Shown: piece by piece, positions 1,291 to 21,752 of the stretch
How positions within the stretch are numbered: position 1 is the stretch's first letter
How the letters are laid out: each line of letters starts with the position of its first letter
Assembly (NCBI RefSeq): GCF_009455635.1
Contig: NZ_QPER01000001.1
Location: forward strand, 3,844,001-3,908,000
Origin: Paraburkholderia agricolaris
Lineage (GTDB): Bacteria > Pseudomonadota > Gammaproteobacteria > Burkholderiales > Burkholderiaceae
DNA: 64,000 nt
Reading direction: 5' to 3'
Program-made: the position numbers and the translations under genes
The notes under the pieces: model-generated
The model's database searches: none
Told to the model about the DNA's origin: nothing
Seen by the model: the letters and a program-made list of their open reading frames with translations, nothing else

Positions 1291-2021
1291 GGTCCAGGCA
1301 CCTTAGATGTCAATGCATAAAGACTGCTCGCCACGCGCGAAGATACTCCAGCAGACGCAGGGCAGCCGGGTTTGGGGAATGCTTCGTGAAAAGAGACTGT
1401 GGAGCAGCCAAGAGTCTCTGGCGGCCGCCGTTGTGCCACCACCGCAAAAGCAGCATGTCGGGTGCGCAGCGTAAAAACGTTGCTTACGATCTCTGATGTG
1501 TCCGATATAAGAATGATTGACCGTCGGCACGGCCGGTTGTCAGTGTGCCAAGCCCACGACTGCTCCGCAAGTGATCGGCAGCAGCTATCTTGAGAGATTT
1601 ATCGCCTCCGGCCCCGCAAGGATATGGCGGTCGACGTGAGCCTCGATAGCGCGGTCGAGTTCGGTTTAGACTGCGCTGATGACGCGTGCGCACATTGGGC
1701 GAAACCGAAGACCACGCCGCCCCCGAACTAGGCGGAAAGCCGAGTAAGTCATACAATCGATACACCATCGGCGGAAAGCGGCCCTGAATACCTACCCCGC
1801 ATACAAATCCGAACGGCCTTGCCGCAAGGCGATGCGCCGCGCGAGGGGCGGCTTTTCATGCCGGCAAAGCGGGACCAATTTGCTCCCTGCCGCAGCGCGT
1901 TAAACAGCGCCGAAACGTGTCAAAAAATCGCGATTTCCAGTACGCGATGTTTCGCCGTTTCGCGTTTCACACGAACTGTTACATCGATTACGTTTTTGAA
2001 TCAAAGCTGCACCAACTCCCG
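1291..2021. other. Intergenic, no gene seen
   Basis: This 730-bp stretch separates the divergent methyltransferase and gmhA. No open frame shows a recognisable protein or a good ribosome binding site. It should hold both promoters, but I could not assign -35/-10 boxes with confidence. Confidence 0.5.
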
Positions 2022-2639
2022 ATGACTACCCCCATGACAAGTACCAGCCACCTCGTCGATATTCTCCAAACAAACGTCGCCCAATCCATCCAGGCAAAGG
2101 AAGCGCTACTCAAAGATGCCCGTTTGCTTGAAACCTTTTCGAAGGCAACGGCACACGTGATCGAGTGCTACAAGGCGGGAGGGCGGCTTTACATTGCTGG
2201 CAACGGCGGCTCCGCAGCCGACTCGCAGCACCTGGCCGCGGAATTCGTCAGCAAGCTCGCGCGGGACAGAAACCCGCTCCCCGCCGAGTCCCTGACGACT
2301 GATACGTCCATTCTCACCGCGATAGGCAACGATTACGGCTACGAACACGTATTTTCCAGACAATTGATTGCAAAACTGAAGCCCAACGATGTTTTTCTGG
2401 GCATCACGACGTCCGGACAATCGAAGAACATCCTGTCAGCCTTGCAGGTGTGCAAGGAAGTTGGAGTGAAGTCGATTGTCTTCACCGGCTTTGGCGGGGG
2501 CGCAGCCGCAACGCTGGCGGACTATCCGTTGATCGCCCCCGGCGACCGGACCAGCACCATCCAGGAGTTGCACATTTTGCTGGCGCACAGCGTGTGCGAA
2601 GCGGTCGAACTGGCGCTCTTCCCTGTCGAGACGGTCTGA
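2022..2639 (+). CDS. gmhA: Phosphoheptose isomerase (sedoheptulose 7-phosphate isomerase)
   Basis: SIS-domain enzyme converting sedoheptulose 7-phosphate to D-glycero-D-manno-heptose 7-phosphate, the first step to LPS heptose. The diagnostic segment GNGGSAADSQHLAAEF gives the phosphate-binding loop and catalytic Glu; ITTSGQSKNI and ELHILLAHSVCE give further substrate loops and the catalytic His. The open frame extends upstream to 1917, but ATG 2022 (or 2034) gives about 205 residues, near the usual family length, and the upstream part has no family similarity. It is separated by 600 bp from the ddh operon, so its pairing with hddC and the heptokinase at 7.5-9.6 kb is by function rather than by operon. 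Confidence 0.88.
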   Translation: MTTPMTSTSHLVDILQTNVAQSIQAKEALLKDARLLETFSKATAHVIECYKAGGRLYIAGNGGSAADSQHLAAEFVSKLARDRNPLPAESLTTDTSILTAIGNDYGYEHVFSRQLIAKLKPNDVFLGITTSGQSKNILSALQVCKEVGVKSIVFTGFGGGAAATLADYPLIAPGDRTSTIQELHILLAHSVCEAVELALFPVETV

Positions 2640-3243: not shown

Positions 3244-4011
3244 ATGAAAGTTGTATTGCTTGCAGGGGGTCTAGGTACCCGAATTTCGGAAGAGACGTCT
3301 GTCCGTCCAAAGCCGATGGTCGAGGTCGGCGGCAAGCCCATTCTCTGGCATATCATGAAGATTTATGCCGCGCACGGATTGACTGATTTTATTGTTTGTT
3401 GCGGCTACAAAGGATATCTGATCAAGGAATACTTCGCCAACTATTTCTTGCACATGTCCGACGTCACGATCGATCTCGGCAAAAACTCCCTGGAAGTGCA
3501 TCAGAAAAAGGCTGAGCCCTGGCGCGTGACGTTGGTCGACACCGGCGAAACCACGCAGACAGGCGGCCGTCTGCGTCGTGTGCGGGACTATATCGACGGC
3601 GATTTTTGCATGACGTATGGCGACGGTGTGGGCTCCGTCAACATCACTGATTTGCTGTCCTTCCATCGCACGCATGGCAAGCAGGCAACGATGACTGCCG
3701 TTCAGCCTCCAGGCCGGTTTGGCGCGCTGGAGATGAATGGCACGCAAGTCCGTTCCTTCATGGAAAAACCGACCGGCGACGGCGGCTGGATCAATGGTGG
3801 TTTCTTCGTTCTGAATCCGTCTGTGATCGACCTGATCGAAGGCGACGAAACCCTCTGGGAACGTCAACCGCTTGAAGCGCTCGCAAAGAACGATCAGTTG
3901 CAAGCTTACTTCCACCACGGCTTCTGGCAGCCAATGGACACGCTGCGTGACAAGACCCACCTCGAAGAGTTGTGGACGTCGGGCAATGCGCCGTGGAAAA
4001 AGTGGGAGTGA
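3244..4011 (+). CDS. ddhA: Glucose-1-phosphate cytidylyltransferase
   Basis: Makes CDP-D-glucose from glucose 1-phosphate and CTP, the entry to CDP-3,6-dideoxyhexoses (RfbF/DdhA/AscA). The N-terminus has the nucleotidyltransferase signature [12 protein letters not shown] with [13 protein letters not shown], typical of cytidylyltransferases; MTYGDGVG supplies the metal-binding Asp region, and WINGGFFV follows. At 255 residues it is full length. It is the first gene of an eight-gene cluster with gaps or overlaps no larger than 28 bp; ddhB starts 2 bp downstream. Confidence 0.93.
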
Positions 4012-4013
4012 CG

Positions 4014-5114
4014 ATGGTAGTTGATCCTGCGTTCTGGCGTGGCAAGCGAGTTTTCCTGACCGGCCATACCGGCTTCAAAGGCGGCTGGATGTCGCTGTGG
4101 CTGGCATCCATGGGTGCAAAGCTGGCGGGTTACTCGCTGCAGCCGAGCACGCAACCGAATCTCTTTGAAGCAGCCAACATTGCGCCGCTTCTGGAAGAGA
4201 ACCACATCGGCGACATTTGCGATCGCGAGAAGCTAACGGCCGCCATGGTTGGCTTCCGTCCCGACGTTGTGATTCACATGGCGGCGCAGGCTCTGGTCCG
4301 TCCGTCGTATACGGCACCCGCCGAAACGTACGCGACCAATGTGATGGGCACCGTCCACGTGCTGGATGCCATCCGGCAGTGCAATACGGTCCGCGCCGCA
4401 GTCATGGTTACGTCCGACAAGTGTTATCAGAACAATGAATGGCCCTGGGGCTATCGTGAAAACGAACCCATGGGCGGCTACGACCCGTACAGCAATAGCA
4501 AGGGCTGCGCGGAACTGGTGACGTCGGCCTATCGGCAATCGTTCTTCCCGGCGGAGCGTTACGCGGATCACGGCGTAGCCATTGCGTCCGGACGAGCGGG
4601 CAATGTGATCGGTGGAGGCGACTGGTCTGCGGATCGGCTGGTCCCCGACGCCGTTGCAGCGTTCCAGAAGGGCACGCCGCTGATGATTCGCAGCCCCGGT
4701 GCGATCCGCCCCTGGCAACACGCGCTGGAACCCATCTCGGGGTATCTGGTATTGGCGCAAGCCTTGGCGGATCAAGGCCCCGCATTCTGCGGCGGCTGGA
4801 ACTTCGGCCCCAATGACACGGATGCACGGAGCGTGCGAGAAGTCGTCGAGCTCGTCATCGACAAATGGGGTGGCCCCGCGAGCTGGCAACAGGACGGCGC
4901 TGAACAACCCCACGAAGCCAATTTCCTGAAACTGGATTGCTCGAAAGCTAAACAGCACCTGGGCTGGACGCCGAGCTGGGATTTGTCGAAGGCAATTGAG
5001 GCAACGGTTGCATGGCATCGCGCCAGGATGAGCGGCGAAGACATGCAACAAGTTTGTCTTGCCCAGATTCAAAGCTATTCAGACGCCGCGCAAAAGCGTG
5101 CGGCGAAAAAGTAA
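4014..5114 (+). CDS. ddhB: CDP-glucose 4,6-dehydratase
   Basis: Extended SDR enzyme that converts CDP-glucose to CDP-4-keto-6-deoxyglucose (RfbG/DdhB). The Rossmann motif is [16 protein letters not shown] near the N-terminus, with GHTGFKG characteristic of CDP-glucose dehydratases. The catalytic region is YDPYSNSKG with Tyr and Lys in the YxxxK arrangement, and [12 protein letters not shown] follows. ATG 4014, behind GGGAG, is chosen over an upstream in-frame start that would overlap ddhA by 40 bp; this gives 366 residues, the usual length. Confidence 0.93.
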
Positions 5115-5142
5115 ATCAAAAGATTCCCAAGAGGTCTCCACT

Positions 5143-6486
5143 ATGGTTATCGACATCATCGATTCTGGCAAACAGGCGCAAGCCGAACTACGTAACAAGA
5201 TCGCAGCGCTCGTTGACGAGTATGCCGCGCTCGCCTATGCGGACAAGCCCTTCGTTCCCGGACAAACAACGATTCCTCCGTCGGGCAAAGTCATCGGTGC
5301 GCCAGAACTCAAGAACATGGTCGAAGCGTCGCTCGACGGCTGGCTGACAACAGGCCGCTTCAACGACGAGTTTGAAAAGCGCCTCGCCCAGTATCTGGGT
5401 GTTAATCACCTGATCACCGTCAACTCGGGCTCCTCGGCCAACCTGGTGGCGTTCAGCACGCTCACGTCGCCGAAGCTCGGCGAGCGCGCGATTCTGCCGG
5501 GCGACGAAGTGATTGGCGTGGCAGCGGGATTCCCGACAACGGTCAATCCGATTCTCCAGTTCGGCGCCGTGCCTGTCTTCGTCGACGTCGAACTCGGCAC
5601 CTACAATATCGACGCATCGAAGATCGAGGCCGCGCTCTCCAGCAAAACCAAGGCCATCATGCTGGCCCACACGCTGGGCAATCCGTACAACCTGGGTGTC
5701 ATCAAGGATATCTGCGAGCGCCACAACCTGTGGTTGATCGAAGACTGCTGCGATGCACTGGGCGCGACCTACAACGGGCAGAAGGTCGGCACGTTCGGCG
5801 ACATCGGCACGCTGAGCTTCTATCCGGCTCACCACATCACCATGGGTGAAGGCGGCGCGGTTTTCACCAACAATCTCGAACTCAAGATGATCGCGGAGTC
5901 GTTCCGCGATTGGGGACGCGACTGCTATTGCGCTCCGGGCAAGGACAACACGTGTAACAAGCGTTTCTGCTGGAAGCTCGGCAACCTGCCCGAAGGATAC
6001 GACCACAAATATACGTATTCGCATCTCGGCTACAACCTGAAGATCACCGACATGCAGGCAGCTTGCGCCTTGTCGCAGCTTGATCGTATCGACGACTTCA
6101 TCGCGAAGCGCCGCGCCAACTTCGACTTCCTGAAGGGGCGTCTCGCGTCCTGCGAGGAGTTCCTGTTGCTGCCGCATGCCACGGAAAACTCCGACCCTTC
6201 CTGGTTCGGCTTCCCGATCACGCTGAAAGACAACGCGCCCGTCAGCCGTCTCGAACTGTTGACCTATCTCGACCAGAACAAGATCGGCACCCGTCTGCTG
6301 TTCGCCGGCAACCTCACGCGCCAGCCGTACATGCTGGGCCGGAACTACCGCGTGGTGGGCGAGCTGACCAACAGCGATATCGTCATGAACCAGACGTTCT
6401 GGCTTGGCATCTATCCGGGGCTGACGTCCGAACACCTCGAATACGTGGCGACCAAGATCGAAAACTACCTTGGCGTAGGGTTCTGA
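5143..6486 (+). CDS. ddhC: CDP-4-keto-6-deoxyglucose 3-dehydrase (E1, PMP/[2Fe-2S])
   Basis: PLP-fold enzyme using pyridoxamine phosphate and a [2Fe-2S] cluster to remove the C3 hydroxyl (RfbH/E1). Two hallmarks are visible in the 447-residue product. The usual PLP lysine is replaced by His (FYPAHH, His230). Cys203, Cys261, Cys263 and Cys271 reproduce the E1 spacing C-X57-C-X-C-X7-C. An E3-type reductase partner is not seen in the window and would have to be supplied elsewhere. It lies 28 bp after ddhB and 2 bp before the next SDR. ATG 5143 has AGAGG upstream. Its product, CDP-4-keto-3,6-dideoxyglucose, is the acceptor for branched-sugar chemistry. Confidence 0.94.
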
Positions 6487-6488
6487 GC

Positions 6489-7559
6489 ATGACGTCGCGC
6501 GATGACATGCACGCTTCGCAAAAGCCGTTTCTGGAGATAGCCAGCGCCGACTTTGCAAGGTTGGCGCAGCACATCGACAGCCAGGATTTCGCCGGCAAAA
6601 CCATCCTGGTCTCCGGCGCGACCGGTTTTTTCGGCATGTGGATACTTGCGCTGTTCGCATGGATGCAAAAGACGCGTGACGTTCAGTTCCGCGTGCTTGC
6701 CATTTCGCGCAACCCGCGGAATTTTCAGGCGAGGCATCCCTGGATCGAAGGCGCCGAGTGGTTGCAGTGGATCACCGGCGACATCCAGGATTTCACCTTT
6801 CCCGAGGCAACCGTCGATTGCGTCATTCATGCGGCAACCGATACATCCGCAGCCGCCGGGAGATCGCCGGGCCTGCTGCTGAACTCTATCGTGCGCGGCA
6901 CTGAACGCATTCTTGCTTGCGCCAAGGCCTGCCACGCAAAGCGCATCCTGCTGGTGAGTTCCGGCGGCGCCTATGGCGGACAAGCAGTCGAGACACCTCG
7001 TCTGCTCGAATCTTTGAGAACCGCGCCCTCGACGATGGACCTGGGGAGCGCCTACGGCGAAGGCAAGCGCGTCATGGAGCTCCTCGGGGCGATCCATGCA
7101 CATGAGAACGAGTGCGACGTGGTCATCGCCCGATGCTTCGCATTCGTTGGCGCGGGCCTGCCGCTGGACGGCCACTTTGCGATCGGCAACTTCATCCGCG
7201 ACGCGCTCACGCAGGAGCGGATCGTCATTCGCGGCGATGGCAAGGGCGTTCGCTCCTATCTTTACGCGGCCGATCTTGCTGTCTGGCTGATGCGCCTGCT
7301 GTCAAACGGACAGAACCGGGAAATTTACAACGTCGGTTCTGATCAGGAAGTCACGATCGCGGAACTGGCGCGCCAGGTCATTGCGTCGCTGGCACCGGAG
7401 AAGACTGTCGTTGTCGAAGGTGCCAGCAATAGCCCCGGCGCCGGCAATCGCTACGTCCCGTCAATCGACCAGGCCCGCGAACGGCTCGGCCTGGACGTTT
7501 GGACTCCGTTGCCGCTGGCGATTCACAACACTGCCCTTTGGTCTTCGAAGAACTCATGA
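6489..7559 (+). CDS. Extended SDR: NDP-sugar epimerase/reductase
   Basis: NAD(P)-dependent sugar-nucleotide enzyme. The Rossmann loop SGATGFFGMWIL is near residue 42, HAATDTSAAA follows, and the catalytic pair is in SAYGEGK (YxxxK). Family knowledge allows a 4-reductase, an epimerase, or a YerF-like reductase of the keto group on a branched CDP-sugar. Its place between ddhC and the heptose-type genes, with a ThDP enzyme in the same operon, favours reduction of a newly formed ketone, but this is inference. It ends in an ATGA overlap with hddC. Confidence 0.75.
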   Translation: MTSRDDMHASQKPFLEIASADFARLAQHIDSQDFAGKTILVSGATGFFGMWILALFAWMQKTRDVQFRVLAISRNPRNFQARHPWIEGAEWLQWITGDIQDFTFPEATVDCVIHAATDTSAAAGRSPGLLLNSIVRGTERILACAKACHAKRILLVSSGGAYGGQAVETPRLLESLRTAPSTMDLGSAYGEGKRVMELLGAIHAHENECDVVIARCFAFVGAGLPLDGHFAIGNFIRDALTQERIVIRGDGKGVRSYLYAADLAVWLMRLLSNGQNREIYNVGSDQEVTIAELARQVIASLAPEKTVVVEGASNSPGAGNRYVPSIDQARERLGLDVWTPLPLAIHNTALWSSKNS

Positions 7560-8245
7560 AAGCATTGATACTGTGTGGAGGATTGGGTAGCCGCCTGCGT
7601 AGTGTGATCGGAGCATCGCAAAAGGCAGTGGTCGATATCGACGGGCGCCCCTTCCTTTATTACGTCATCGAACAGCTTGCGAAAGCCGGCATTCGTGACC
7701 TCGTTTTTTGTACTCACTTCCAGTCTGAGCAGGTGGAAAGCGTCGTGGCGGATCTACCCGCCGACCCCGCACGGAACGTAGCAATCGTGCGCGAGCCTTC
7801 TGCGATGGGAACGGGTGGCGCCGTGCTGTACGCGCTGTCCCAGCTTCAGTATGAAGGTCCGTTTATCGCCCTTAATGCGGACACCTATCTTGATGCCAGC
7901 GCCTATCAAAGCGCGGCGGAGGCTGCGCCGCCCGTGATCGTCGTCACGCCGATTGACGATTGCGAGCGGTACGGCGCGGTGCAAATGGATGAGAATCGCC
8001 GGGTTCAAGCCGTGACCGAAAAAGGCAAGATCGGCCCGGGTCTGATCAGCGCCGGCGTTTACGGTCTGCATACTCGCCATCTCACCACCTTCCCTGTCGA
8101 GACGTTATCGATGGAACAGGACATCATTCCAGCGCTGATCTCGCAGCAGCTTCTGACGGCGCAGGTGTATGAGGGTCCTTTCCTGGATATCGGCACGCCT
8201 GACAGCCTGAAATTCATTCGCGAACAAGGTGTGCAGAAACTGTAA
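7556..8245 (+). CDS. hddC: HddC-type sugar-1-phosphate nucleotidyltransferase
   Basis: 229-residue nucleotidyltransferase resembling D-glycero-D-manno-heptose 1-phosphate guanylyltransferase. LCGGLGSRLRSV, with KAVVDIDGRPFLYYV, is the NTP-binding loop; ALNADTYLD is the metal-binding acidic motif; YGAVQMDENRRV and DIGTPDSL are typical of HddC. ATG 7556 overlaps the SDR stop as ATGA and the stop overlaps the kinase start as TAATG. With the adjoining kinase it would activate a heptose or similar sugar as an NDP-sugar; GDP is expected by family. Confidence 0.8.
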   Translation: MKALILCGGLGSRLRSVIGASQKAVVDIDGRPFLYYVIEQLAKAGIRDLVFCTHFQSEQVESVVADLPADPARNVAIVREPSAMGTGGAVLYALSQLQYEGPFIALNADTYLDASAYQSAAEAAPPVIVVTPIDDCERYGAVQMDENRRVQAVTEKGKIGPGLISAGVYGLHTRHLTTFPVETLSMEQDIIPALISQQLLTAQVYEGPFLDIGTPDSLKFIREQGVQKL

Positions 8246-9609
8246 TGAAAGATCATTTCACAAATCTTGTCGTAAACCACAATCAACCCGTCGTGGATGC
8301 GATTGCAGCCATCGAGCGCGGCCCGACCCAGATCGCACTGGTGGTCGACGCAGATGAGGTATTGGTAGGCGTACTCACCAATGGTGACCTGCGGCGCTTC
8401 CTGGTGAACGGCGGCCAAACGTCGACCCCGGTTCGCGAATGCATGAATCGCAAATTCCATGCGCTGCCTCACGGGACTTCGCGCGAAGAACTATTGAAGC
8501 TATTCGATCTGGGCTATAACGCGGTTCCTCTGCTCGATCCGCATGGCAAGCTCGTCGAATTCGCTACTCCGGATTTTTTCCCGCCAGCGAAGGAAGTGGC
8601 GGTGCTGTCGCGCGCAAGGGCGCCAGTGCGTATCAGCTTCTCCGGCGGCGGGACCGACCTCACCTATTACTTCATGAAGAACGGCGGTGTCGTTCTGAAT
8701 GCATCGATCGCACTGTACGCGCACGCCACGCTGATTCCGTCCGCAGGACCGGAAATCAATATCATCTCGCATGATATCGATCGCCACGAGCACTATCCGA
8801 CGCTGCGCAGTCTGCTGGACAGCCTGGATAAGGGGCTTCTGTCCTCCGTGGTGTCGGTGATCCGCCCGGACTTCGGCTTCGATCTGTTTGTGCATTCCGA
8901 CTTCCCGGTAGGCTCCGGCCTCGGCGGCTCGTCCGCCGTGGCAACAAGCGTCGTAGCCGCGTTTAACGAACTGCGGCTGGATAAATGGAGCACCTATGAA
9001 ATCGCCGAACTCGCGTTCCAGGCCGAGCGGCTCTGCTTCGCGATTTCCGGTGGCTGGCAGGATCAATATGCCTCGGCGTTCGGCGGCTTCAACCTGATCG
9101 AATTCGACGGCAAGCGCAACATGGTTCATTCGCTGCGCCTCGAGTCCGCGATCGGCCACGAGCTGGAAGAATGCCTGATACTGTGCAATACCGGCATTGA
9201 GCACAACTCCGGCAAGATCCACGAGCAGCAGCGTGAAGACTTCAACAAGGTCGACCGCAACCAGCAGTTGCTCGATATGGTGGACCTTTGCCGGCGCATG
9301 CACAAACACCTGATTCGCGGCGACCTCAATGATTTCGGCACCAGCCTGCATGAGGCGTGGACAATCAAACATGGCCTGTCGAGCGCAATTAGCGGTAACG
9401 CCCTGGACGCGATCTACCAGGCGGCACTGGATGCCGGCGCGCTGGGCGGCAAGTTGCTGGGCGCGGGCGGCGGTGGCTTCTTCCTGTTCTATGTACAACC
9501 GCGCCACCGCGCTTCGGTGTCGGCCAAGCTCAAATCACTGGGCTGCACATTGAGCACCGTCCGTTTCGAACAAGAAGGCGTAACTTCGTGGAGAACCAAA
9601 GTAGCATGA
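8245..9609 (+). CDS. CBS-pair fused to GHMP kinase (HddA-like heptokinase)
   Basis: 454-residue two-part protein. Residues about 1-120 form a tandem CBS pair (LVGVLTNGDLRRF and YNAVPLLDPHG are CBS core strands). Residues about 130-454 are an HddA-like GHMP kinase: ARAPVRISFSGGGTDL, the ATP loop PVGSGLGGSSA, GGWQDQYASAFGG, and a C-terminal LGAGGGGFFLF. HddA phosphorylates D-glycero-D-manno-heptose 7-phosphate at O1. CBS pairs usually sense adenine nucleotides and in nonulosonate loci are more often attached to the nucleotidyltransferase, so their attachment to the kinase is unusual. It overlaps hddC by one base and the NeuB gene by four. Confidence 0.82.
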   Translation: MKDHFTNLVVNHNQPVVDAIAAIERGPTQIALVVDADEVLVGVLTNGDLRRFLVNGGQTSTPVRECMNRKFHALPHGTSREELLKLFDLGYNAVPLLDPHGKLVEFATPDFFPPAKEVAVLSRARAPVRISFSGGGTDLTYYFMKNGGVVLNASIALYAHATLIPSAGPEINIISHDIDRHEHYPTLRSLLDSLDKGLLSSVVSVIRPDFGFDLFVHSDFPVGSGLGGSSAVATSVVAAFNELRLDKWSTYEIAELAFQAERLCFAISGGWQDQYASAFGGFNLIEFDGKRNMVHSLRLESAIGHELEECLILCNTGIEHNSGKIHEQQREDFNKVDRNQQLLDMVDLCRRMHKHLIRGDLNDFGTSLHEAWTIKHGLSSAISGNALDAIYQAALDAGALGGKLLGAGGGGFFLFYVQPRHRASVSAKLKSLGCTLSTVRFEQEGVTSWRTKVA

Positions 9610-11507
9610 ACGAATCGACATTCAAGATTGGCGATTTTACTGTCGGGGGCCCACGCACGTTCGTGATCTCTGAAATCGGCAACAATCACAACGGCAGCCT
9701 GGCACTGGCGAAAGAACTGGTGGATGCGTCGATCGACGCCGGTGCGGATTGCGTCAAGTTTCAGATCAGAAACCGCGCTGCGCTCTATCGAACGGCTCCA
9801 GGGGCCGAGGGCTCCGAGGATCTGGGTGTCGAGTACATTCAGGACCTGCTGAACAAGGTCGAGCTGACGAACGACGAGCACCGGGAACTGCGCGAATATT
9901 GCGCGCAGAAGAACATCACCTATATGTGCACGCCGTGGGACGAACCCAGCGTCGACGTGCTGGCAGGATTCGACGTGCCGGCACTCAAGCTCGCATCGGC
10001 CGACCTGACGAACCCCTATCTGATCCGCAAAGCGGCCAGCCTGGGCAAGCCGCTGATCCTCTCCACCGGCATGTCGCTCGAGCCCGAAATCGAGGCCGCG
10101 GCGAAACTGGTCAAGAGTCTGGGCGTGCCGTTTGCGATGCTTCATTGCAATAGCACCTATCCCGCTCCGGAAGCCGACATTCATCTCGGCTACATCAAGC
10201 GCCTGCAGGAAATTCACAGCGTAATTGGCTATTCCGGTCACGAACGCGGCACGGCGGTGACCATTGCCGCCGTGGCCCTGGGCGCAAAGGTGGTCGAACG
10301 GCACATCACGCTCGACCGCAACATGGAAGGTCCCGATCACGCTGCGAGTCTCGAACCGGCCGAATTCAAGGCGCTGGTCGACGGCATTCGCCAGGTCGAT
10401 CAGGCACTGCCCTGGACAGGTCCTGGCCGGCAAGCCAGCCAGGGTGAGCTACTCAATCGCGAAAACCTGAGCAAGAGCGTCATCGCCGCGCGCGCCATCA
10501 AGCAGGGCGAAACCTTCACCGAGGAAAGCCTGCGTGTCGCAAGTCCCGGTCAAGGTCTGGCACCGTACCGCCTGCCCGATCTGCTCGGTAAGGTCGCGCA
10601 TCGTGATATCCGTATCGGCGACTTCCTGTATGAAGGCGACCTGACCGGCCAGAAAACGGTGAAGCGCTCATACCAGTTCCCGGGATATTGGGGGGTGCCG
10701 GTTCGCTATCACGATTTCGAGCAATACGTCGCCATGATCGATCCGGACCTCTATGAGTTCCATCTGTCATATCGTGACCTGTCGCTGAAGCCGGCTAATT
10801 ATCTTAAGCAGGTTGACTGCAAGCGTCTGGTCGTTCACGCGCCCGAACTGTTCGAGAACAGCGAGTTGCTCGATCTGACCTCGGATGATCTGGCCTACCG
10901 TCAACGCTCCATCGACAACCTCAAGCGGGTGGTCGAGGCGACCGAGGAGATGCGCAGCTTCTTCCCCGCAGCGGATTCGGCATTGATCGTGGCGAACGTC
11001 GGCGGCTTTTCGATGGATGCGCCCTTCCCGCTTGCGCATCGCGCCGAGCTGTATAACCGCTTCGCCGAATCGTGCGCGAAGATCGACTTCGGCTCCACCG
11101 AACTGACGCCGCAGAACATGGCGCCGTTCCCTTGGCATTTCGGCGGGCAGCGTCACCAGAACATCTTCATGATGCCGGACGAGCTGGCTGAGAAAGCGAA
11201 GGAACTCAAGCTGCGCTATTGCACCGACCTGTCGCATCTGCAAATGACCTGCAGTCATTTCGGACTCGACTTCCAGGATGCATTGGCGAAGCTGTTGCCG
11301 CACAGCGCGCACCTGCACGTGGCCGATGCGCTTGGCGTCAACGGCGAAGGCGTTGTGATCGGCACTGGCGACGTCAACTGGCCTGAAACCTGGAAGAAGG
11401 TCTCGGCATACCCGTCCGTCAGCTTCATCCCCGAAGTGTGGCAAGGCCACAAAGACCACGGCGCCGGCTTTTGGCACGCGCTGGACTTCCTCACCAAGCT
11501 CAACTAG
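9606..11507 (+). CDS. NeuB-family synthase + SAF domain + C-terminal TIM barrel
   Basis: 633-residue fusion. Residues about 1-280 match N-acetylneuraminate/pseudaminate synthase: SEIGNNHNG, KFQIRN, STGMS, HCNSTYPAPEAD, GYSGHERG and the metal-binding ERHITLDRNMEGPDH. Residues about 285-345 are the SAF/antifreeze-like domain (VIAARAIKQGETF). Residues about 355-633 look like a xylose-isomerase/endonuclease-IV-type TIM barrel with His, Glu and Asp clusters (VVHAPELF, LHVADALG, IPEVWQGH). NeuB enzymes condense PEP with an aldose to give a 2-keto-3-deoxy acid. No CMP-nonulosonate cytidylyltransferase is nearby, so the acid may be used directly. ATG 9606 (ATGA overlap) is preferred to GTG 9588. Confidence 0.85.
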   Translation: MNESTFKIGDFTVGGPRTFVISEIGNNHNGSLALAKELVDASIDAGADCVKFQIRNRAALYRTAPGAEGSEDLGVEYIQDLLNKVELTNDEHRELREYCAQKNITYMCTPWDEPSVDVLAGFDVPALKLASADLTNPYLIRKAASLGKPLILSTGMSLEPEIEAAAKLVKSLGVPFAMLHCNSTYPAPEADIHLGYIKRLQEIHSVIGYSGHERGTAVTIAAVALGAKVVERHITLDRNMEGPDHAASLEPAEFKALVDGIRQVDQALPWTGPGRQASQGELLNRENLSKSVIAARAIKQGETFTEESLRVASPGQGLAPYRLPDLLGKVAHRDIRIGDFLYEGDLTGQKTVKRSYQFPGYWGVPVRYHDFEQYVAMIDPDLYEFHLSYRDLSLKPANYLKQVDCKRLVVHAPELFENSELLDLTSDDLAYRQRSIDNLKRVVEATEEMRSFFPAADSALIVANVGGFSMDAPFPLAHRAELYNRFAESCAKIDFGSTELTPQNMAPFPWHFGGQRHQNIFMMPDELAEKAKELKLRYCTDLSHLQMTCSHFGLDFQDALAKLLPHSAHLHVADALGVNGEGVVIGTGDVNWPETWKKVSAYPSVSFIPEVWQGHKDHGAGFWHALDFLTKLN

Positions 11508-11516
11508 AACGCCACA

Positions 11517-13262
11517 ATGAACGTCGCTGAATTTATTCTTTCGAACATCCAGAAACTGGGCACGGATACCGCATTTTGCTTGACCGGCGGCATGGCGATG
11601 CACATCAATCGCGCGGCGGACGAGTCCGCCCTGCGGATGATCTACTGCAATCATGAGCAGGCAGTCGCCGCCGCTGCGGACGGCTACGCAAAAGCGAAAG
11701 ACTACGTCGTCCCGGGTCTCGCGATCGTCACATCGGGTCCTGGCGTGACGAACACCATCACGTCGGTGGCTTCCGCCTACTACGACTCGGTGCCGATGTT
11801 CGTGCTCGCCGGGCAGGTCAAGCGGGCTGACATCAACGCGCATGGCGTCCGCAGCCGCGGGGCGCAAGAAACGCCGCATCTGGAATTGATGCAGCAGGTC
11901 ACGAAATGCGCGTTCCGTTACCAGCCGTCAGAGGTCGACGACGCAACGCTGGCGGCGAATCTGGCTCAAGCCGTCACGGGCCGTAAGGGCCCGGTGTTCA
12001 TCGACATCCCGCTTGACGTGCAAGCCGAGGTTGTCCCCGACGCCGAAGCCCGTCTCGAGAAAATCGCTGCATTGATCGCCGCAGCCGTGCACAAGGATCA
12101 CGAGATTCCCGAGGCCGCAGTCTCGGCGATCATCGAGGGTCTGCAAACCGCGCGCAAGCCGGTGCTGGTAGTGGGCAATGCGTTGCGTATCGCCGGCATT
12201 TCCCGCGCGTCGATCAAGGAGCTGGTCGAGAAGATTGGCGTCCCCACGCTGTTCACCTGGGCCAGCTTCGATCTGTTGGCACACGATCACCCGTTGAACT
12301 TCGGTTGCGCCGGCGGCTTGGCCCCGACGCATTCGAACCAGATCATGCAGTCGGCCGACTATGTCGTCTTCCTCGGCACGCGCCTCGATCTGTTGACCAC
12401 GGCATTCAATCCGGCCAACTACGGCAAAAATGCACGCCGGATTGTCGTGGAGCTGGACGAGAAAGAAATTGCCAAGAATGCAGGCCTGCCGAACACCACG
12501 TTCTTCAACGACAATGTCGCCGGCGTTGTAGATGCTCTGCTGGTGCGTGCTCCTGCAATCGATACGAAAGACTGGCTGGCGCATTGCAAAACCTTGCTCG
12601 CCAAGGATCGTGAAGACGAGCAAGCCGCTTTCGGCACGCCCCGACTGACCACCTACCAGATCTCGAATGTCCTCTCGGCTTCCCGCGTAGGAAAGTACGT
12701 GGTGCCGACCGCGTCCGGATACGCAATTGAAGGCATTGCGCGCTTCTTTAAGCCGACGGAAGGCGCCAGCTTCGCCTGGGCAGGCCACGTGCTCGGTTCC
12801 ATGGGTCTGGGCTTGCCGACCGCCGTGGGCGCCGTTGCGGCGCTGAAACAGCCCGTGGTGTGCCTGGAAGGTGACGGTGGACTGCTGCTGAACGTTCAGG
12901 AACTGTTCACGTTGGCTGCGAATCCGGATCTGCCGTTGACGATCATCGTGCTGAACAACCGCGGTTATCAATCGATCATCAAGTCGCAGGCGCGTGCGTT
13001 CGGCAAGGAGTTCGGCGCCTCGGCAACGTCCGGTTTGTATGAACTCCAGTTCGAACTGCTGGCCAAGCTGGCTGGCCTGCCTTACGAGAAGTGCGACACC
13101 CTGGCACAACTCGAAGCGAGCCTGAACAGCGGCGCACCGCGGCGTTTGATTGACGTATCCGTCGAGGAAGACGGCTATCGCGGCCCGTCCGTGACCACGA
13201 AGTTCGACGAGAACGGCAAGCCTTACTCGACGGACATCGCGGACGTCACCTGGGCGCGATAA
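11517..13262 (+). CDS. ThDP-dependent acetolactate-synthase-like enzyme (YerE-like role)
   Basis: 581-residue thiamine-diphosphate enzyme. Glu47 in CNHEQAVAAAADGY is the ThDP-activating residue; GDGG at 452-455 and NN at 480-481 give the GDG-X25-NN cofactor motif; the central domain is of acetolactate-synthase type. The family decarboxylates 2-keto acids and transfers the acyl anion to a carbonyl. YerE of Yersinia uses pyruvate to put a two-carbon branch on C4 of CDP-4-keto-3,6-dideoxyglucose. With ddhABC and a 2-keto-acid synthase in the same operon, a YerE-like role is likely; the donor is unknown. It is the last gene of the operon, 9 bp after the NeuB fusion. Confidence 0.83.
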   Translation: MNVAEFILSNIQKLGTDTAFCLTGGMAMHINRAADESALRMIYCNHEQAVAAAADGYAKAKDYVVPGLAIVTSGPGVTNTITSVASAYYDSVPMFVLAGQVKRADINAHGVRSRGAQETPHLELMQQVTKCAFRYQPSEVDDATLAANLAQAVTGRKGPVFIDIPLDVQAEVVPDAEARLEKIAALIAAAVHKDHEIPEAAVSAIIEGLQTARKPVLVVGNALRIAGISRASIKELVEKIGVPTLFTWASFDLLAHDHPLNFGCAGGLAPTHSNQIMQSADYVVFLGTRLDLLTTAFNPANYGKNARRIVVELDEKEIAKNAGLPNTTFFNDNVAGVVDALLVRAPAIDTKDWLAHCKTLLAKDREDEQAAFGTPRLTTYQISNVLSASRVGKYVVPTASGYAIEGIARFFKPTEGASFAWAGHVLGSMGLGLPTAVGAVAALKQPVVCLEGDGGLLLNVQELFTLAANPDLPLTIIVLNNRGYQSIIKSQARAFGKEFGASATSGLYELQFELLAKLAGLPYEKCDTLAQLEASLNSGAPRRLIDVSVEEDGYRGPSVTTKFDENGKPYSTDIADVTWAR

Positions 13263-13274
13263 GCGGATGTTCCG

Positions 13275-13311
13275 TGTCCCCACCGGGCAGCCTCTCGCTC
13301 TGGTGGGGACA
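13275..13311 (+). terminator. Stem-loop after the ThDP gene
   Basis: Perfect 10-bp inverted repeat TGTCCCCACC/GGTGGGGACA with a 17-nt loop, 13 bp after the stop codon, followed by a weak GTTTC. It is a plausible end of the ddh operon, and it lies between convergent transcripts. Confidence 0.55.
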
Positions 13312-13414
13312 GTTTCAGACAGTGAATAGCGTGCCGATCTGGCCGGCATGCCTAGGGAACGGCAGAGCCGCATCCCTTTGCTCACCGGCTGACCAGCGCC
13401 AGCTCAGTTGCCGC

Positions 13415-15067
13415 CTAGACCTCGACGGGCGACAACGAAGACATGTGCCGCATCACGTAGCGCTGCACGTCGTTGCATAGCTCCGTTCTGTCGCTCGACA
13501 GAAACAGCAGAGGAGCACGTTGAACCGTTGTGTCCAGCAACGAGAGGTCGACGCCATGAAGCACTGCCATGTATTGGCCATCCGCTTCGTGGATGTCATA
13601 GCCCCACAGTTCCCCTTCGCCACCAATGACAAGCGCCTTGTGATACGAGTTGCGCGCCTTTGCCGTGGGCTGCAGCACGACCTTTCCCTCATTCACGATA
13701 CTCAGGCTGGACGTATCAATTCCGATATGCTCGGCAATACGACGCGCATGCCCAACCGGATCGGCAACGAGATCTTCGTAAGAAAGCTTGTATGGAGAGA
13801 TATTGTGTTCACTGAAGAAGCTCAGGAAAAACTTTTCTACGCCCAGGAGAAAATTGACCTTCTCAATAAGCGTCGCTCTCGATATATAGCGGAATTTCTC
13901 GTCCTGAGGCGAACCTGAGAAATTGTGCCAGACGCCTGTGTCGATCGATATCTGATAGGAAATCGCCTGGGCAAGGACATCTTCTCGCCAGATGTAAACA
14001 TGGCGCCAATCTTTGACGTCGGAGAAAAATTCCGGCTCCTGCACGAAGCGCTCCGACTCAATCTCGATCCCATATACGCCGTTCTCGGAACGATGCCTGG
14101 AGACAAGAAATTCGTCATAGGAAGAAAAAACGTCGGAGAATGCGAGCGAAAATGTCCTGACCACATCCGGGACAAAAGACTCACCAGGAAATCCAAGCTT
14201 GCGAGTGCTAGCCAGAAGTTCCGTTAGAAGTGTAGATCCCGAACGGGGAACCATGAAGATGCAATACTTCAGCGCAGCTTCCTGATTGTTCTTTAAGAAA
14301 GTCTCGACCAGTTCTTTTGGCGTTCGTTGATATTGCGATTTTATATACTCAATAGACAGCGTCCACTCCTTCTCCAATATTTCAACCCGATCTGCAACGC
14401 TGACTTGCGGAGCGTGAAGGTCAATTGGGTGAAAGGCCGTTTCCGAGTGAAGCTGGACTATCCGACTCTCATCCAAACCAGAAGCACGGTCGTCACATCG
14501 GAGTGTCAGCTGGCCTGTTGCATCATCGCATTGCGCGACACCGTACTGGAGAAACGCGCGGCATGGAACCGTCTGCCCGGCCTTTTCAGCGTTTATCGCG
14601 AAGTCGACAAACCCCGGCGACGTGAAGCGCAAAAATACAGAATATTGAGGATTCGCTTCAGTATTTGATATACGGTCGTCCCAAAGGCGTTTGCCATTTG
14701 CACAAACCGAGACGGTATATTCGCCCTCAAAAACAACAGGAACAAAAGATACCGCTATGAAATAGGTACCCGGAGACGCGATATGGACCCGGGCAGCCAT
14801 TGTCTCGAAGGAATGGGAAACAAGGACGACCCGGTTAGGCGGAACGGGAACGTGCTCATAGACAGTGGTCCCAGATCCCAGATTGGCAGCCGCGAAACCC
14901 GTTCCTTCGTTTGGACGGCCGGCCAGCGTCCACGCATACCAGCGTTTGATCCCTTGTTCCGTGAAGGTATATTTTCGGAGCGGCGCAAAAAAATAATCCC
15001 CGACCTTCTCTCCATACTGAGTTAGAAGCGTTTCTGACGAACTCGGGAGCAGGTTTGCGTTGTGCAT
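13415..15067 (-). CDS. Sulfotransferase family protein with N-terminal beta-rich domain
   Basis: About 550 residues. The C-terminal half has the PAPS 5'-phosphosulfate loop in IFMVPRSGSTLLTELL, an ESFVPDVVR segment, and WREDVLAQAISY, as in Stf0-type sulfotransferases. The N-terminal 220 residues look like a beta-sandwich of unknown role, perhaps substrate recognition. It probably sulfates a glycan of this locus. ATG 15067 is taken, with GAGG about 11 bp upstream; a TTG 21 bp earlier is possible. The gene and its 5' flank look AT-richer than the neighbouring core genes, suggesting transfer. It faces the ddh operon tail to tail and lies upstream of neither wzt nor wzm. Confidence 0.78.
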   Translation of the reverse strand: MHNANLLPSSSETLLTQYGEKVGDYFFAPLRKYTFTEQGIKRWYAWTLAGRPNEGTGFAAANLGSGTTVYEHVPVPPNRVVLVSHSFETMAARVHIASPGTYFIAVSFVPVVFEGEYTVSVCANGKRLWDDRISNTEANPQYSVFLRFTSPGFVDFAINAEKAGQTVPCRAFLQYGVAQCDDATGQLTLRCDDRASGLDESRIVQLHSETAFHPIDLHAPQVSVADRVEILEKEWTLSIEYIKSQYQRTPKELVETFLKNNQEAALKYCIFMVPRSGSTLLTELLASTRKLGFPGESFVPDVVRTFSLAFSDVFSSYDEFLVSRHRSENGVYGIEIESERFVQEPEFFSDVKDWRHVYIWREDVLAQAISYQISIDTGVWHNFSGSPQDEKFRYISRATLIEKVNFLLGVEKFFLSFFSEHNISPYKLSYEDLVADPVGHARRIAEHIGIDTSSLSIVNEGKVVLQPTAKARNSYHKALVIGGEGELWGYDIHEADGQYMAVLHGVDLSLLDTTVQRAPLLFLSSDRTELCNDVQRYVMRHMSSLSPVEV

Positions 15068-15550
15068 TTCCAGTTTACCTCGAAGCAAATTTCTAATTTT
15101 TCAAAATCTCTTGGCCAATAGACGGCGGCCTCGGCGGGATGCGAGTGAACTGCATCGGGCGACGTGTGCGAACGCAATGGGTTTTGGAGTCGGCCATCCC
15201 TTTGCCCGCCGGTTACGCACGAGTTCCGTGCGTCGGAGCAACGAACGTGTGCCAATAGGAGAAGTTTGCTCAAAGTGCCGGAGGTCGGCAACCCGAATTA
15301 ATTTTCCGTTACAACTGCAGATAATAAATAATCTGCGGGAATTTTATGCAAGCGCGTTGCTGGCCATAAAGTGGGATCGTTGCACCGCAGGTGGTCAAAA
15401 TCCAAACAACGGATCAGCTATTCCGTGGAAAGTTGCCGGAATAGCCCCAATCTCACGCAAGGAAAGGCCGTATAGCCGGCAATCGCTCGTCGTCCACCAG
15501 ACATCGAGTTGCGGCTATACGAGCGCAAGCGGGCGGGAACAGCTCGTGCG
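15068..15550. other. Intergenic, AT-rich
   Basis: No supported gene in 480 bp between the wzt stop and the sulfotransferase start. A small inverted repeat, GCAGAT-N8-ATCTGC, lies at 15317-15336 in an AT-rich patch; it may belong to the sulfotransferase promoter. Confidence 0.4.
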
Positions 15551-16252
15551 TCAGGAAGTGGAAACGATCCTACCGTGTTCCATCGTGATACGGCGATTCG
15601 CAAGCCGCTCTGCCAGACCGTGATCATGCGTTGCAATCACGAGGATGCCGGCATCGCTCACGAACTGTTCGAGACGTTGCTCGGCTTTGTGCTTGAAGTG
15701 TTCGTCGCCGACACTCATCCATTCGTCCATCAGCAAAACTTCGGGCTTGATAATAGTCGAAATCGAAAAGGCGAGACGCAGTGTCATACCCGATGAATAG
15801 GTACGCACGGGCACGTTCAGGAAATCGCCAAGCTCACTGAATTCAGCGATCTCATCCGACAATGCCGCGATCTGCTTGGCCTTGAGGCCAAGAAACAGTC
15901 CGCGCAGATACATGTTCTCGTAGCCGGTGGATTCCAGATCCATACCGAGCATAGAGTCCAGCAAGCTGGTGACACGGCCCTTTACCTGAACGGTGCCTTC
16001 CTCGGGGTGGTACACGCCGGCAAGCACTCGCAGCAAGGTCGTTTTGCCCGCCCCGTTACCGCCAAGCAGCGCGACCCGATCACCCTCGGCGATCTCCAGA
16101 TTAATCTCGTGCAGCGCCTCAACAACAGTGTGCCCTGACTTGCCAACAAATTGGCCGCCGGTCGCGGCTGCCATCACTGCACGCTTGAACGACCGCTGCT
16201 TCGCGTCGTAAATGGGAAAGCGTACGCTCACGTTCTCAAGAGAGATATGCAT
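15551..16252 (-). CDS. wzt: O-antigen/polysaccharide ABC exporter, ATP-binding subunit
   Basis: Inner-membrane ATPase driving export of an undecaprenyl-linked polysaccharide with Wzm. Walker A is GGNGAGKTTLL, the ABC signature YSSGMTLRL, Walker B VLLMDEW, and the switch His is in IATHDH. ATG 16252 starts MHISLENV, the normal beginning, giving 233 residues. There is no C-terminal carbohydrate-binding domain of the kind that recognises capped O-chains in E. coli O8/O9a Wzt, so export is probably not coupled to terminal-residue recognition in this protein. It lies 13 bp after wzm. Confidence 0.9.
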   Translation of the reverse strand: MHISLENVSVRFPIYDAKQRSFKRAVMAAATGGQFVGKSGHTVVEALHEINLEIAEGDRVALLGGNGAGKTTLLRVLAGVYHPEEGTVQVKGRVTSLLDSMLGMDLESTGYENMYLRGLFLGLKAKQIAALSDEIAEFSELGDFLNVPVRTYSSGMTLRLAFSISTIIKPEVLLMDEWMSVGDEHFKHKAEQRLEQFVSDAGILVIATHDHGLAERLANRRITMEHGRIVSTS

Positions 16253-16265
16253 TCGAACGCTCCCT

Positions 16266-17054
16266 TTAAAGCCAGTATGTAACGCGATGCCGGCACTTGC
16301 CGAGCATATACAGCGCCAATGCGGTTCCAACCACCGCCATTCCCGTGGCCCGAATCCAGATATCAGGCGCCGGCATCATACCAAGCAAGGGTTCACGCAA
16401 AAGTTCCAGAAGGTAGAAGAACGGATTGAGGTGAATCAGGTGTTGCCGCTCGGGGGATAACTGCTCAGCTTTCCAGATAATGGGCGTCACGAAGAACATG
16501 ACCTGCACCAGATTACCGATCACCGGCTGCATGTCGCGATACCGCGTGCAAAAGATACTCGTGATAATGCCAATCCAAAAAAGATTGACTAGCACGAGGA
16601 GTATGGAAAACGGCAAAACCAACAGGCTCGCATTCAAATGGACCGGCAAAATCGCCCAGATGACGACAAAAACGATGATGTTGTGAGCAAGGATGATCGA
16701 GTGCCGGTACATCACTCGAAGCACGAACATCGAGAGCGGCAGCTTCATTTGCCGCAGGTAATTCGTCGAATTCGAAAACGCTTCTCCGAAATCGCCGATC
16801 TGTCCGGCAATAAAGCCCCAGAAAATCAATCCGAGTGCCAGGTGCGGGATAAAGGACGCAGCGTTATATCCAAACAGCGACCCGTACAGCGGCCCCATGG
16901 CGCCGATCATCACACCCATACTGATCGTCAGCCAGAACGGCCCCAGCAGCGAGCGGCGATAGCGTTGGCGGATATCCTGCATGCCGAGCGCGAGCCACAA
17001 CTCGCGGCTACGCAAACCATCCCGGACATCATTTACGGCGTTCAAATACTTCAC
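16266..17054 (-). CDS. wzm: O-antigen/polysaccharide ABC exporter, permease
   Basis: 262-residue ABC-2-type permease with about six membrane segments. The N-terminal cytosolic region LWLALGMQDIRQRYRRSLLGPFWL is typical of Wzm/KpsM proteins, and VMFFVTPIIW and NPFFYLLELLREPLLG mark the C-terminal half. It forms the export channel with Wzt; polymer is assembled on the cytosolic face, so no Wzx/Wzy is required. The glycosyltransferases for this polymer are not in the window and presumably lie to the left. Confidence 0.9.
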   Translation of the reverse strand: MKYLNAVNDVRDGLRSRELWLALGMQDIRQRYRRSLLGPFWLTISMGVMIGAMGPLYGSLFGYNAASFIPHLALGLIFWGFIAGQIGDFGEAFSNSTNYLRQMKLPLSMFVLRVMYRHSIILAHNIIVFVVIWAILPVHLNASLLVLPFSILLVLVNLFWIGIITSIFCTRYRDMQPVIGNLVQVMFFVTPIIWKAEQLSPERQHLIHLNPFFYLLELLREPLLGMMPAPDIWIRATGMAVVGTALALYMLGKCRHRVTYWL

Positions 17055-18079: not shown

Positions 18080-18976
18080 TCACCGCGCCGCCATGCAAAG
18101 ACTCAACGCATCGCGCCAGTCCGGCGCACGAACGCCGAATGTGCTCGCAAGCTTGTCATTCGAAAGACGCGAATTGGCCGGTCTCGCGGCAGCAGTGGGA
18201 TAGGACGCGGCGGGCAGCGGCATGACTCGAGGTTTCGCGGCCAGACCGGACAGCTCGAAAATAGCCTGCGCGAACCCATACCAGGACGTCTCGCCCGAAG
18301 CGGTCAAATGGTAGACGCCTGAATACGACGACCACCAGTCGTCCCAATCTCCCGCCCGTAGCGCTGCCGTCTGCGCAAGCACGTTTGAAGTCAGGGCCGC
18401 AATAGTATTCGCCCATGTGGGGGCGCCATACTGGTCGGCCACCACGCTTAGCTCGCTGCGCTCCGCGCCGAGGCGCAGCATGGTCAACAGGAAGTTTTTG
18501 CCGCGTGTTCCGTAGACCCAACTGGTGCGAAAAATCAGATGCGCGCAACCCGACTCGATAATCGCCTGTTCACCCTCGAGCTTGGTGCGCCCGTACACAT
18601 TCTGCGGATTCGGCTCATCGTCTTCGACATACGCCGTGGCCTTCTTTCCGTCAAACACGTAGTCGGTTGAATAGTGGACAAGCGCAGCGCCAAGCCGCTT
18701 CGCCTCTTCGGCCAGCACACGAGGTGCGTCGAGGTTGAGCTGCGTAGCACCCGCCACGTCGGATTCCGCTGCGTCGACCGCCGTGTACGCGGCCGGGTTG
18801 ACGATCAACGCCGGTTTGGTTGCGCGCACAACCTCGCGAATCTGCTGCGGGTCGCGCAGGTCCAACCGGCTGCGATCGAGCGCAACGATTTTGCCCAGCC
18901 CCTGCAAACTGCGTTGCAATTCGAAACCGACCTGACCGTTGGTGCCGGTCAGCAATACGACGCGCTGCTCGCTCAT
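18080..18976 (-). CDS. rmlD: dTDP-4-dehydrorhamnose reductase
   Basis: Last step of dTDP-L-rhamnose synthesis, reducing dTDP-4-keto-L-rhamnose. The N-terminal Rossmann loop is GTNGQVGFELQ; VNPAAYTAVDAAE is a classic RmlD signature; the catalytic region is STDYVFDGKK followed by NVYGRTKLEGE (YxxxK). 298 residues, full length. It is fourth in the minus-strand order rmlB-A-C-D, 12 bp after rmlC. Confidence 0.95.
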   Translation of the reverse strand: MSEQRVVLLTGTNGQVGFELQRSLQGLGKIVALDRSRLDLRDPQQIREVVRATKPALIVNPAAYTAVDAAESDVAGATQLNLDAPRVLAEEAKRLGAALVHYSTDYVFDGKKATAYVEDDEPNPQNVYGRTKLEGEQAIIESGCAHLIFRTSWVYGTRGKNFLLTMLRLGAERSELSVVADQYGAPTWANTIAALTSNVLAQTAALRAGDWDDWWSSYSGVYHLTASGETSWYGFAQAIFELSGLAAKPRVMPLPAASYPTAAARPANSRLSNDKLASTFGVRAPDWRDALSLCMAAR

Positions 18977-18988
18977 GGCCCGCCTCCC

Positions 18989-20418: not shown

Positions 20419-20428
20419 CTCGAACCCC

Positions 20429-21490: not shown

Positions 21491-21752
21491 GAAATTTCCT
21501 TCTAGATGGTAGTGGCGGATCAACTCGGCCTGCTGATCCGTTCACCTCGCGTTGTGGTGTTCACTCTGTGTCGACGCCCGCGGCAACCCCTGCCCCTCGT
21601 GGACAGACGCTGAAACGCCGATCTTATTGAGTCACGATTATAAAGCCGCGCCGATGAAAACCCGAACCCTGGCAACCCGGAGCAGCCTGACAGAACCGCC
21701 TGGCTGTAAGGTGAGCGCAGGACGATTGGGCATCCGCCGCCGCAAATTTTCC

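Follow-up and report, generated by a model that had tools for sequence, protein, structure and literature searches.

In this study we analysed a stretch of 64,000 nucleotides from Paraburkholderia agricolaris (contig NZ_QPER01000001.1, positions 3,844,001 to 3,908,000; hereafter the window). The findings suggested that an eight-gene operon within it makes a cytidine diphosphate (CDP)-activated, 4-C-branched, higher-carbon sugar for a surface polysaccharide, with the branch delivered by a thiamine diphosphate (ThDP)-dependent enzyme from the product of a NeuB-type synthase. We place the probability of this reading, whose enzyme steps are deduced from sequence, at about 0.7. Its core step, the use of a NeuB-type product as ThDP donor onto the product of ddhABC, had been put forward in an initial annotation of this DNA and was well supported by gene neighbourhoods, because one synthase family exchanges a cytidine monophosphate (CMP)-sugar synthetase for a YerE-like partner and because a separate pairing of NeuB-cupin and ThDP proteins exists. 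With a NeuB-family synthase also present in a known maker of caryophyllose, the core idea is probably right. The run of eight genes with gaps of at most 28 bp that the annotation described was recovered in full over 3244 to 13262, all on the plus strand, each open reading frame (ORF) uninterrupted to its stop codon and neighbours spaced by -4 to 28 bp:

3244 to 4011, plus strand: ddhA, glucose-1-phosphate cytidylyltransferase (TIGR02623, 477.6 bits against a cut-off of 300.25)
4014 to 5114, plus strand: ddhB, CDP-glucose 4,6-dehydratase (TIGR02622, 501.9 bits against a cut-off of 278.45; gap 2 bp)
5143 to 6486, plus strand: ddhC/RfbH, CDP-4-keto-6-deoxyglucose 3-dehydrase, E1 (NF011936, 757.2 bits against a cut-off of 423; gap 28 bp)
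6489 to 7559, plus strand: extended short-chain dehydrogenase/reductase (SDR) of epimerase/dehydratase type, the proposed branch ketoreductase with a YerF-like role (PF01370; gap 2 bp)
7556 to 8245, plus strand: HddC-like sugar-1-phosphate nucleotidyltransferase (PF00483; overlap 4 bp)
8245 to 9609, plus strand: CBS domain joined to an HddA-like GHMP sugar kinase, the CBS-kinase (PF00571, PF00288 and PF08544; overlap 1 bp)
9606 to 11507, plus strand: fusion of NeuB, SAF and a xylose isomerase-like TIM domain (AP_endonuc_2), called NeuB-TIM here, the proposed 2-keto-3-deoxy-acid synthase condensing phosphoenolpyruvate (PEP) (Pfam; overlap 4 bp)
11517 to 13262, plus strand: YerE-like ThDP-dependent decarboxylase/carboligase (PF02776, PF00205 and PF02775, TPP_enzyme N, M and C; gap 9 bp)

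In the proposed pathway, DdhABC and a reductase encoded elsewhere would form CDP-4-keto-3,6-dideoxyglucose. NeuB-TIM would join PEP to a non-acetamido aldose, perhaps supplied from a ketose by its own TIM domain, and so form a 2-keto-3-deoxy acid. Rather than undergoing activation with CMP, the acid would be decarboxylated on ThDP and its acyl anion transferred to the ketone at C4 of the CDP-sugar, and the SDR would then reduce the ketone of the new branch. The exact sugar would depend on the aldose, which would set the length of the branch.

Gene neighbourhoods were compared across 21 stretches. Left out of the counts were L012, in which the ThDP match lies in pieces and the stretch begins inside the kinase gene, and L014, L015, L032, L060 and other short loci from genomes already counted. 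NeuB-TIM was accompanied by a YerE-like ThDP gene in eight genomes, that of P. agricolaris and those of L009, L010, L011, L013, L031, L033 and L056. The ddhABC genes lay beside the pair in seven of them, the eighth (L009) being a 7.3 kb contig without ddhABC, and no CMP-sugar synthetase was found in the stretches examined for these eight genomes. Six loci (L034, L035, L036, L037, L055 and L057) carried NeuB-TIM and no YerE-like gene within the stretch examined, which measured about 70 kb in G901 (10,000 to 79,900 of contig C9), about 57 kb in G294, 20 kb each in G835, G979 and G885, and 26 kb in L055. A gene of the CMP-synthetase family PF02348 adjoined NeuB-TIM, or stood one gene off, in all six. 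A search for ddhC at E 1e-80 found none in G294, G835, G979 or G885.

The whole genome of P. agricolaris holds a single PF02348 gene, kdsB (TIGR00466, 277 bits against a cut-off of 155.2), located between genes reading as lpxK and adk, and a dedicated CMP-sugar synthetase was not found by this genome-wide PF02348 search. The synthesis of a CMP-ulosonate in P. agricolaris, which the initial annotation had named as the contrary outcome should a CMP-transferase be encoded elsewhere, was rejected on this PF02348 search. The genome-wide absence holds for P. agricolaris, and for the other genomes the absence refers to the stretches examined. By a weaker test (E 0.001), G325 had one PF02348 match, G338 two (one below cut-off) and G836 two, the second of these lying apart, in a cluster that has a NeuB-like gene to itself (L058); eight Magnetococcales-type genomes had 4 to 10 each.

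The arrangement in G268 speaks for a working link between NeuB-TIM and YerE-like enzymes, as far as gene content can indicate. The genes from SIS to NeuB-TIM were 74 to 91% identical to those of the window, with NeuB-TIM itself at 89%, and the ThDP gene was a different YerE-like one, 35% identical to the window's and 43% to the Magnetococcales type, placed 3.5 kb off on the opposite strand in the stretch. Against the model for acetolactate synthase the encoded enzyme scored 343 bits, below the cut-off of 538, and it formed a long branch in the tree.

A second pairing, which likewise speaks for such a link, involved another YerE-like type. Among 398 genomes sampled across the phylum, nine besides P. 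agricolaris encoded a protein related to the ThDP enzyme (E 1e-70 or better), three of them Magnetococcales, and all nine carried one NeuB-cupin fusion each, adjacent to the ThDP gene in six; ddhC was likewise present in all nine. The NeuB-cupin proteins were 23 to 28% identical to the NeuB-TIM of the window, and the two are so distant that the pairing of NeuB with YerE-like enzymes must have arisen twice or be very old. Both NeuB types end in a domain of a sugar-isomerase family, a xylose-isomerase-like TIM domain in one and a cupin with a weak D-lyxose isomerase match in the other. Mycobacterium marinum has, by protein match, a NeuB-cupin (P0204) 56% identical to that of L039, and the structure of the caryophyllose that M. 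marinum makes is given in the available passages of PMC5706390.

These two pairings also bear on the possibility that the ThDP enzyme uses pyruvate to place a yersiniose-type C2 branch, with the NeuB product going elsewhere, for example onto a glycan via the activation enzyme of 3-deoxy-D-manno-octulosonate (Kdo). YerE itself favours pyruvate, according to the passages seen of PMC12247030, and the operon has the ddhABC genes, the YerE-like gene and the SDR that such a route would use. We regard this outcome as improbable, as 9 bp separate the NeuB-TIM gene from the ThDP gene, the genome has no dedicated CMP-synthetase, and YerE-like enzymes are accompanied by two distantly related types of NeuB. 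The yersiniose pathway of Yersinia pseudotuberculosis (DdhABCD, YerE, YerF) shares with the operon the clustering of ddhABC, a YerE-like carboligase and an SDR; the operon differs in adding NeuB-TIM, the CBS-kinase and the nucleotidyltransferase and in being without ddhD, and its donor is probably not pyruvate.

The last gene of the operon is, by sequence and modelled fold, YerE-like, as the initial annotation had it, and its enzyme is predicted from gene context to transfer an acyl unit to the ketone of a CDP-deoxysugar. Among solved structures its best sequence match was JanthE (8rph, 215 bits), with acetolactate synthases (AHAS) next at 168 bits. A fold search with the modelled protein (predicted local distance difference test score, 92.8) returned JanthE chains at ranks 1 to 6. 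Glu47 and the GDG...NN motif for ThDP binding were present. JanthE (PDB 8rph, 8rpi and 8rpj), nearest by both sequence and fold, is 27 to 28% identical and differs in having a CDG motif where the window protein has GDG; the printed 8rph chain carries this CDG motif, in agreement with the description of JanthE in the available passages of PMC12247030 and PMC12188165. A tree was built from the window protein, 39 relatives, JanthE, IlvG of Escherichia coli and five other ThDP proteins of P. agricolaris, with JanthE represented by its aligned part only, on a long branch, and with paralogues L006, L008 and some further ones left out. It grouped the ThDP enzyme with JanthE and the Magnetococcales-type, NeuB-cupin-linked enzymes, apart from IlvG and the genome's AHAS-like paralogue (98/85).

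An ordinary acetolactate synthase placed here by chance, with NeuB belonging to a nonulosonate pathway, would account for the best NCBIfam match of the ThDP protein, which is the large subunit of acetolactate synthase. That match reached only 233.9 bits against a cut-off of 538.35, the next gene is sulfotransferase-like and on the other strand rather than a small subunit, the protein is nearer to JanthE in sequence, fold and tree, and the operon is kept in other genomes. This explanation is very improbable, and an ordinary acetolactate synthase as the identity of the last gene was rejected on score, structure, tree and context.

NeuB-TIM is, from its sequence, a NeuB-family synthase, and it would condense PEP with a non-acetamido aldose. 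The NeuB superfamily fold was recovered, and the metal and PEP residues are retained. At the position of Arg314, an arginine in both NeuB (1xuu) and PseI (8h2c), NeuB-TIM has Ser319, and serine was found there in 47 of 47 aligned NeuB-TIM proteins; the position was confirmed via the structure titles of 4ipi (R314A) and 4ipj (R314K). Arg314 is the residue that contacts the N-acetyl group. The protein fell below the NCBIfam equivalog cut-offs for TIGR03569 (319.1 against 399.65) and TIGR03586 (239.9 against 340.25). NeuB-TIM shares with the nonulosonate synthases NeuB and PseI the fold, the SAF domain and the metal and PEP residues, and differs from them in the serine, in the C-terminal isomerase-like TIM domain and, in P. 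agricolaris, in having no CMP-synthetase partner. The TIM domain had no PDB sequence match at E 1 or better, and the fold search, whose match list was filled by the NeuB domain, barely probed it.

The distribution of the SDR fits a branch ketoreductase, a role proposed from gene context. Of the 17 loci that have a YerE-like ThDP gene, among them the window, 15 had an SDR homologue at E 1e-8; the six NeuB-TIM loci whose examined stretch lacks a YerE-like gene had none. The two exceptions were L043 and L044, the contig of the latter ending shortly past the ThDP gene.

Longer donors have a precedent, by analogy, in ErwE (erwiniose, Pectobacterium atrosepticum) and MMAR_2332 (caryophyllose, M. marinum), YerE-like enzymes likened here by description. 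In the passages seen of PMC12247030, ErwE favours functionalised donors longer than C4, MMAR_2332 has a similar preference for longer hydroxylated 2-keto acids, and an in silico search brought up over 200 YerE-like genes. How the long donors for the branches of caryophyllose and erwiniose are made is not described in these literature passages, and here the proposed source is a NeuB-family synthase. PMC12247030 does not use the terms NeuB, sialic, neuraminate, phosphoenolpyruvate or heptose, and searches of open-licence PubMed Central found no publication that connects NeuB-type synthases with YerE-like enzymes; a Freiburg dissertation on sugars with longer branches, cited in PMC12247030, may contain the connection. 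The available passages of the literature on Pseudomonas and Oxalobacteraceae O-antigens and on M. marinum lipooligosaccharides, in which not every paper was checked for NeuB, gave no NeuB in a branched-sugar cluster.

If the aldose were a four-carbon deoxy sugar, the product would be caryophyllose (3,6-dideoxy-4-C-[tetrahydroxyhexyl]-hexose), as the initial annotation proposed. The carbon count fits the structure in the available passages of PMC5706390, with C1' the former keto carbon, C2' the CH2 from PEP and C3'-C6' a 4-deoxytetrose, and the known maker M. marinum has a NeuB-family synthase. That synthase, however, is of the cupin type and 23% identical to the window's, so its substrates may differ from those of NeuB-TIM, and no gene of the operon obviously makes a 4-deoxytetrose. 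We therefore treat caryophyllose as a tentative candidate, worth considering and on balance unlikely.

The aldose could otherwise be a heptose from the local GmhA-, HddA-, GmhB- and HddC-like enzymes, which would give a C10 ulosonic acid, a nine-carbon acyl unit and a C15 branched sugar. To our knowledge, such a C15 branched monosaccharide would exceed in size any described. The locus holds a homologue of each enzyme of the pathway to GDP-D-glycero-D-manno-heptose (GmhA, HddA, GmhB, HddC), and differs from that pathway in that its GmhA-, HddA- and HddC-like proteins score below curated cut-offs, its kinase has a CBS domain, and the genes are linked to NeuB-TIM. Two of these heptose-type genes lie outside the operon:

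1917 to 2639, plus strand: GmhA-like SIS isomerase of sedoheptulose-7-phosphate isomerase type, 604 bp upstream of ddhA (start codon uncertain)
L050, 9769 to 10311: GmhB-like phosphatase, about 9 kb before the window

The nearest solved structures of the GmhA-like protein are phosphoheptose isomerases, its scores with the NCBIfam GmhA models fell short (173.1 against 276 and 168.4 against 209.45 bits), and its gene is retained upstream of ddhA in L011, L013, L031 and L056. The best NCBIfam model for the HddC-like protein was HddC, at 110.2 bits against a cut-off of 300, and the HddA-like kinase scored 229.7 bits with HddA against 600, the best solved relatives of the CBS-kinase being named (putative) heptose-phosphate or sugar kinases (177 to 191 bits). 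The GmhB-like gene, which completes the heptose-type set of the locus, scored above the cut-off of TIGR00213 (178.7 bits against 149.6) and below those of two other GmhB models (173 against 178 and 170 against 250).

The CBS-kinase adjoined NeuB-TIM in nine of 13 loci (the window, L010, L011, L013, L031, L033, L056, L034 and L057), of the ThDP and CMP types alike; this count sets aside the short contig L009. In the stretches examined, with L050 and L032 counted for their genomes, seven of these nine loci had SIS genes, eight had nucleotidyltransferase genes and five had GmhB genes. The kinase was absent from the other four loci, L035, L036, L037 and L055, three of which carry a CBS domain on the NeuB-TIM protein itself, beside the CMP-synthetase (L035 and L036 by Pfam, L055 by tblastn). 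The linkage of kinase and NeuB-TIM, with the CBS domain on one protein or the other, suggests a single pathway, and an equally good account is that these genes simply supply a nucleoside diphosphate-heptose to the same glycan. The kinase is missing from four loci, a free aldose for NeuB would require neither kinase nor nucleotidyltransferase, and the family cut-offs were missed as given above, so that we consider a heptose-derived branch doubtful. The heptose-type genes linked to NeuB-TIM, to which the initial annotation gave too little weight, nevertheless keep it in view.

Several observations weigh against the proposed pathway. The eight and six loci are not independent, because they belong to few clades, and neighbourhoods within one clade do not count separately. 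The NeuB-cupin gene was on a contig other than that of the ThDP gene in three of the nine genomes with the second pairing. A NeuB-cupin (P0188), also 56% identical to that of L039, occurs in Mycobacterium canettii, from whose lipooligosaccharides we know of no caryophyllose. None of the four proposed steps has a use for the heptose-type genes. The initial claim that ddhABC makes CDP-4-keto-3,6-dideoxyglucose stood in part: ddhA, ddhB and ddhC all scored above equivalog cut-offs, while the formation of this sugar also requires a DdhD-type reductase, and no ddhD was found in the operon. The P. agricolaris genome has 10 FAD_binding_6 genes, and the one scanned, a ferredoxin-FAD-NAD protein of 343 amino acids (L062), is a candidate reductase that scored above no NCBIfam cut-off.

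G901 belongs with these observations. There ddhABC (57 to 75% identical to the window's) lies about 15 kb from NeuB-TIM on the same contig, the 70 kb examined contain no YerE-like gene, and NeuB-TIM is partnered by a CMP-synthetase. Next after ddhABC come a transketolase, encoded as two separate genes, and an SDR (L079, 7312 to 13151). The two modules, as far as gene content indicates, also coexist without a YerE-like enzyme. G901 can also be read as a natural control, in which the transketolase would make a C2-ketol branch on the CDP-sugar and the ulosonate would be kept for CMP. A rule that ddhABC occurs only with a YerE-like enzyme was considered and failed in G901; the weaker claim, of a CMP-synthetase or a YerE-like gene near NeuB-TIM, was kept.

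Should the proposed donor route hold, NeuB products would have a second fate besides CMP activation, with NeuB-type synthases of two distant lines feeding long donors to YerE-like enzymes in parallel to the formation of CMP-ulosonates. A set of genes labelled 'N-acetylneuraminate synthase' would then be misnamed, and the synthase lying near the ThDP gene could serve to predict how long the branch of an unknown sugar is. The two enzymes would also form a pair for building tertiary alcohols with polyhydroxylated chains.

Both proteins were uncommon in the genomes sampled. In the family sample of 398 genomes, the ThDP enzyme was found in three at E 1e-150, P. agricolaris included, and NeuB-TIM in five at E 1e-120, namely the three with the ThDP enzyme, G268 and the CMP-type G294. 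NeuB-TIM was found in six of 300 genomes of the order sample, and a class-level search at E 1e-180 found none beyond P. agricolaris itself (1 of 369). Among the matches listed in searches of plasmids, there was one full-length NeuB-TIM locus, in Ensifer canadensis, no CBS-kinase, and no close relative of the ThDP enzyme, the best being of IlvG type. NeuB-TIM proteins 72 to 76% identical to the window's were seen in Pseudomonas chlororaphis, P. protegens and P. saponiphila (P0270, P0271, P0276, P0279 and others), where they carry the label N-acetylneuraminate synthase family protein.

The operon has the following further neighbours, which indicate a surface polysaccharide locus:

130 to 1290: TylF-type methyltransferase, near the operon
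13415 to 15088, strand opposite to the operon: sulfotransferase-like gene, the next gene after the ThDP gene
15551 to 17054: ABC transporter genes
18080 to 21523: rml-type genes, named by inspection

The recurrence of the gene set elsewhere indicates that the grouping of the operon is more than chance. The same set was found in Paraburkholderia elongata (L011), Burkholderia sp. WAC0059 (L013) and G338 (L031). It was kept in a Rhodopila metagenome-assembled genome (L010), without a nucleotidyltransferase or SIS gene in the stretch examined, and stood in another order in the more distant Burkholderiales genome G836 (L033). In G836 a methyltransferase, an aldo-keto reductase, the ThDP gene and two classical SDRs lie between NeuB-TIM and the nucleotidyltransferase (11358 to 17016), and the extra genes look as if the branched sugar were modified further. 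In Burkholderia multivorans WS-FJ9 (L012, 3170 to 4826), the ThDP gene matched in separate pieces, which represents decay or a sequencing error.

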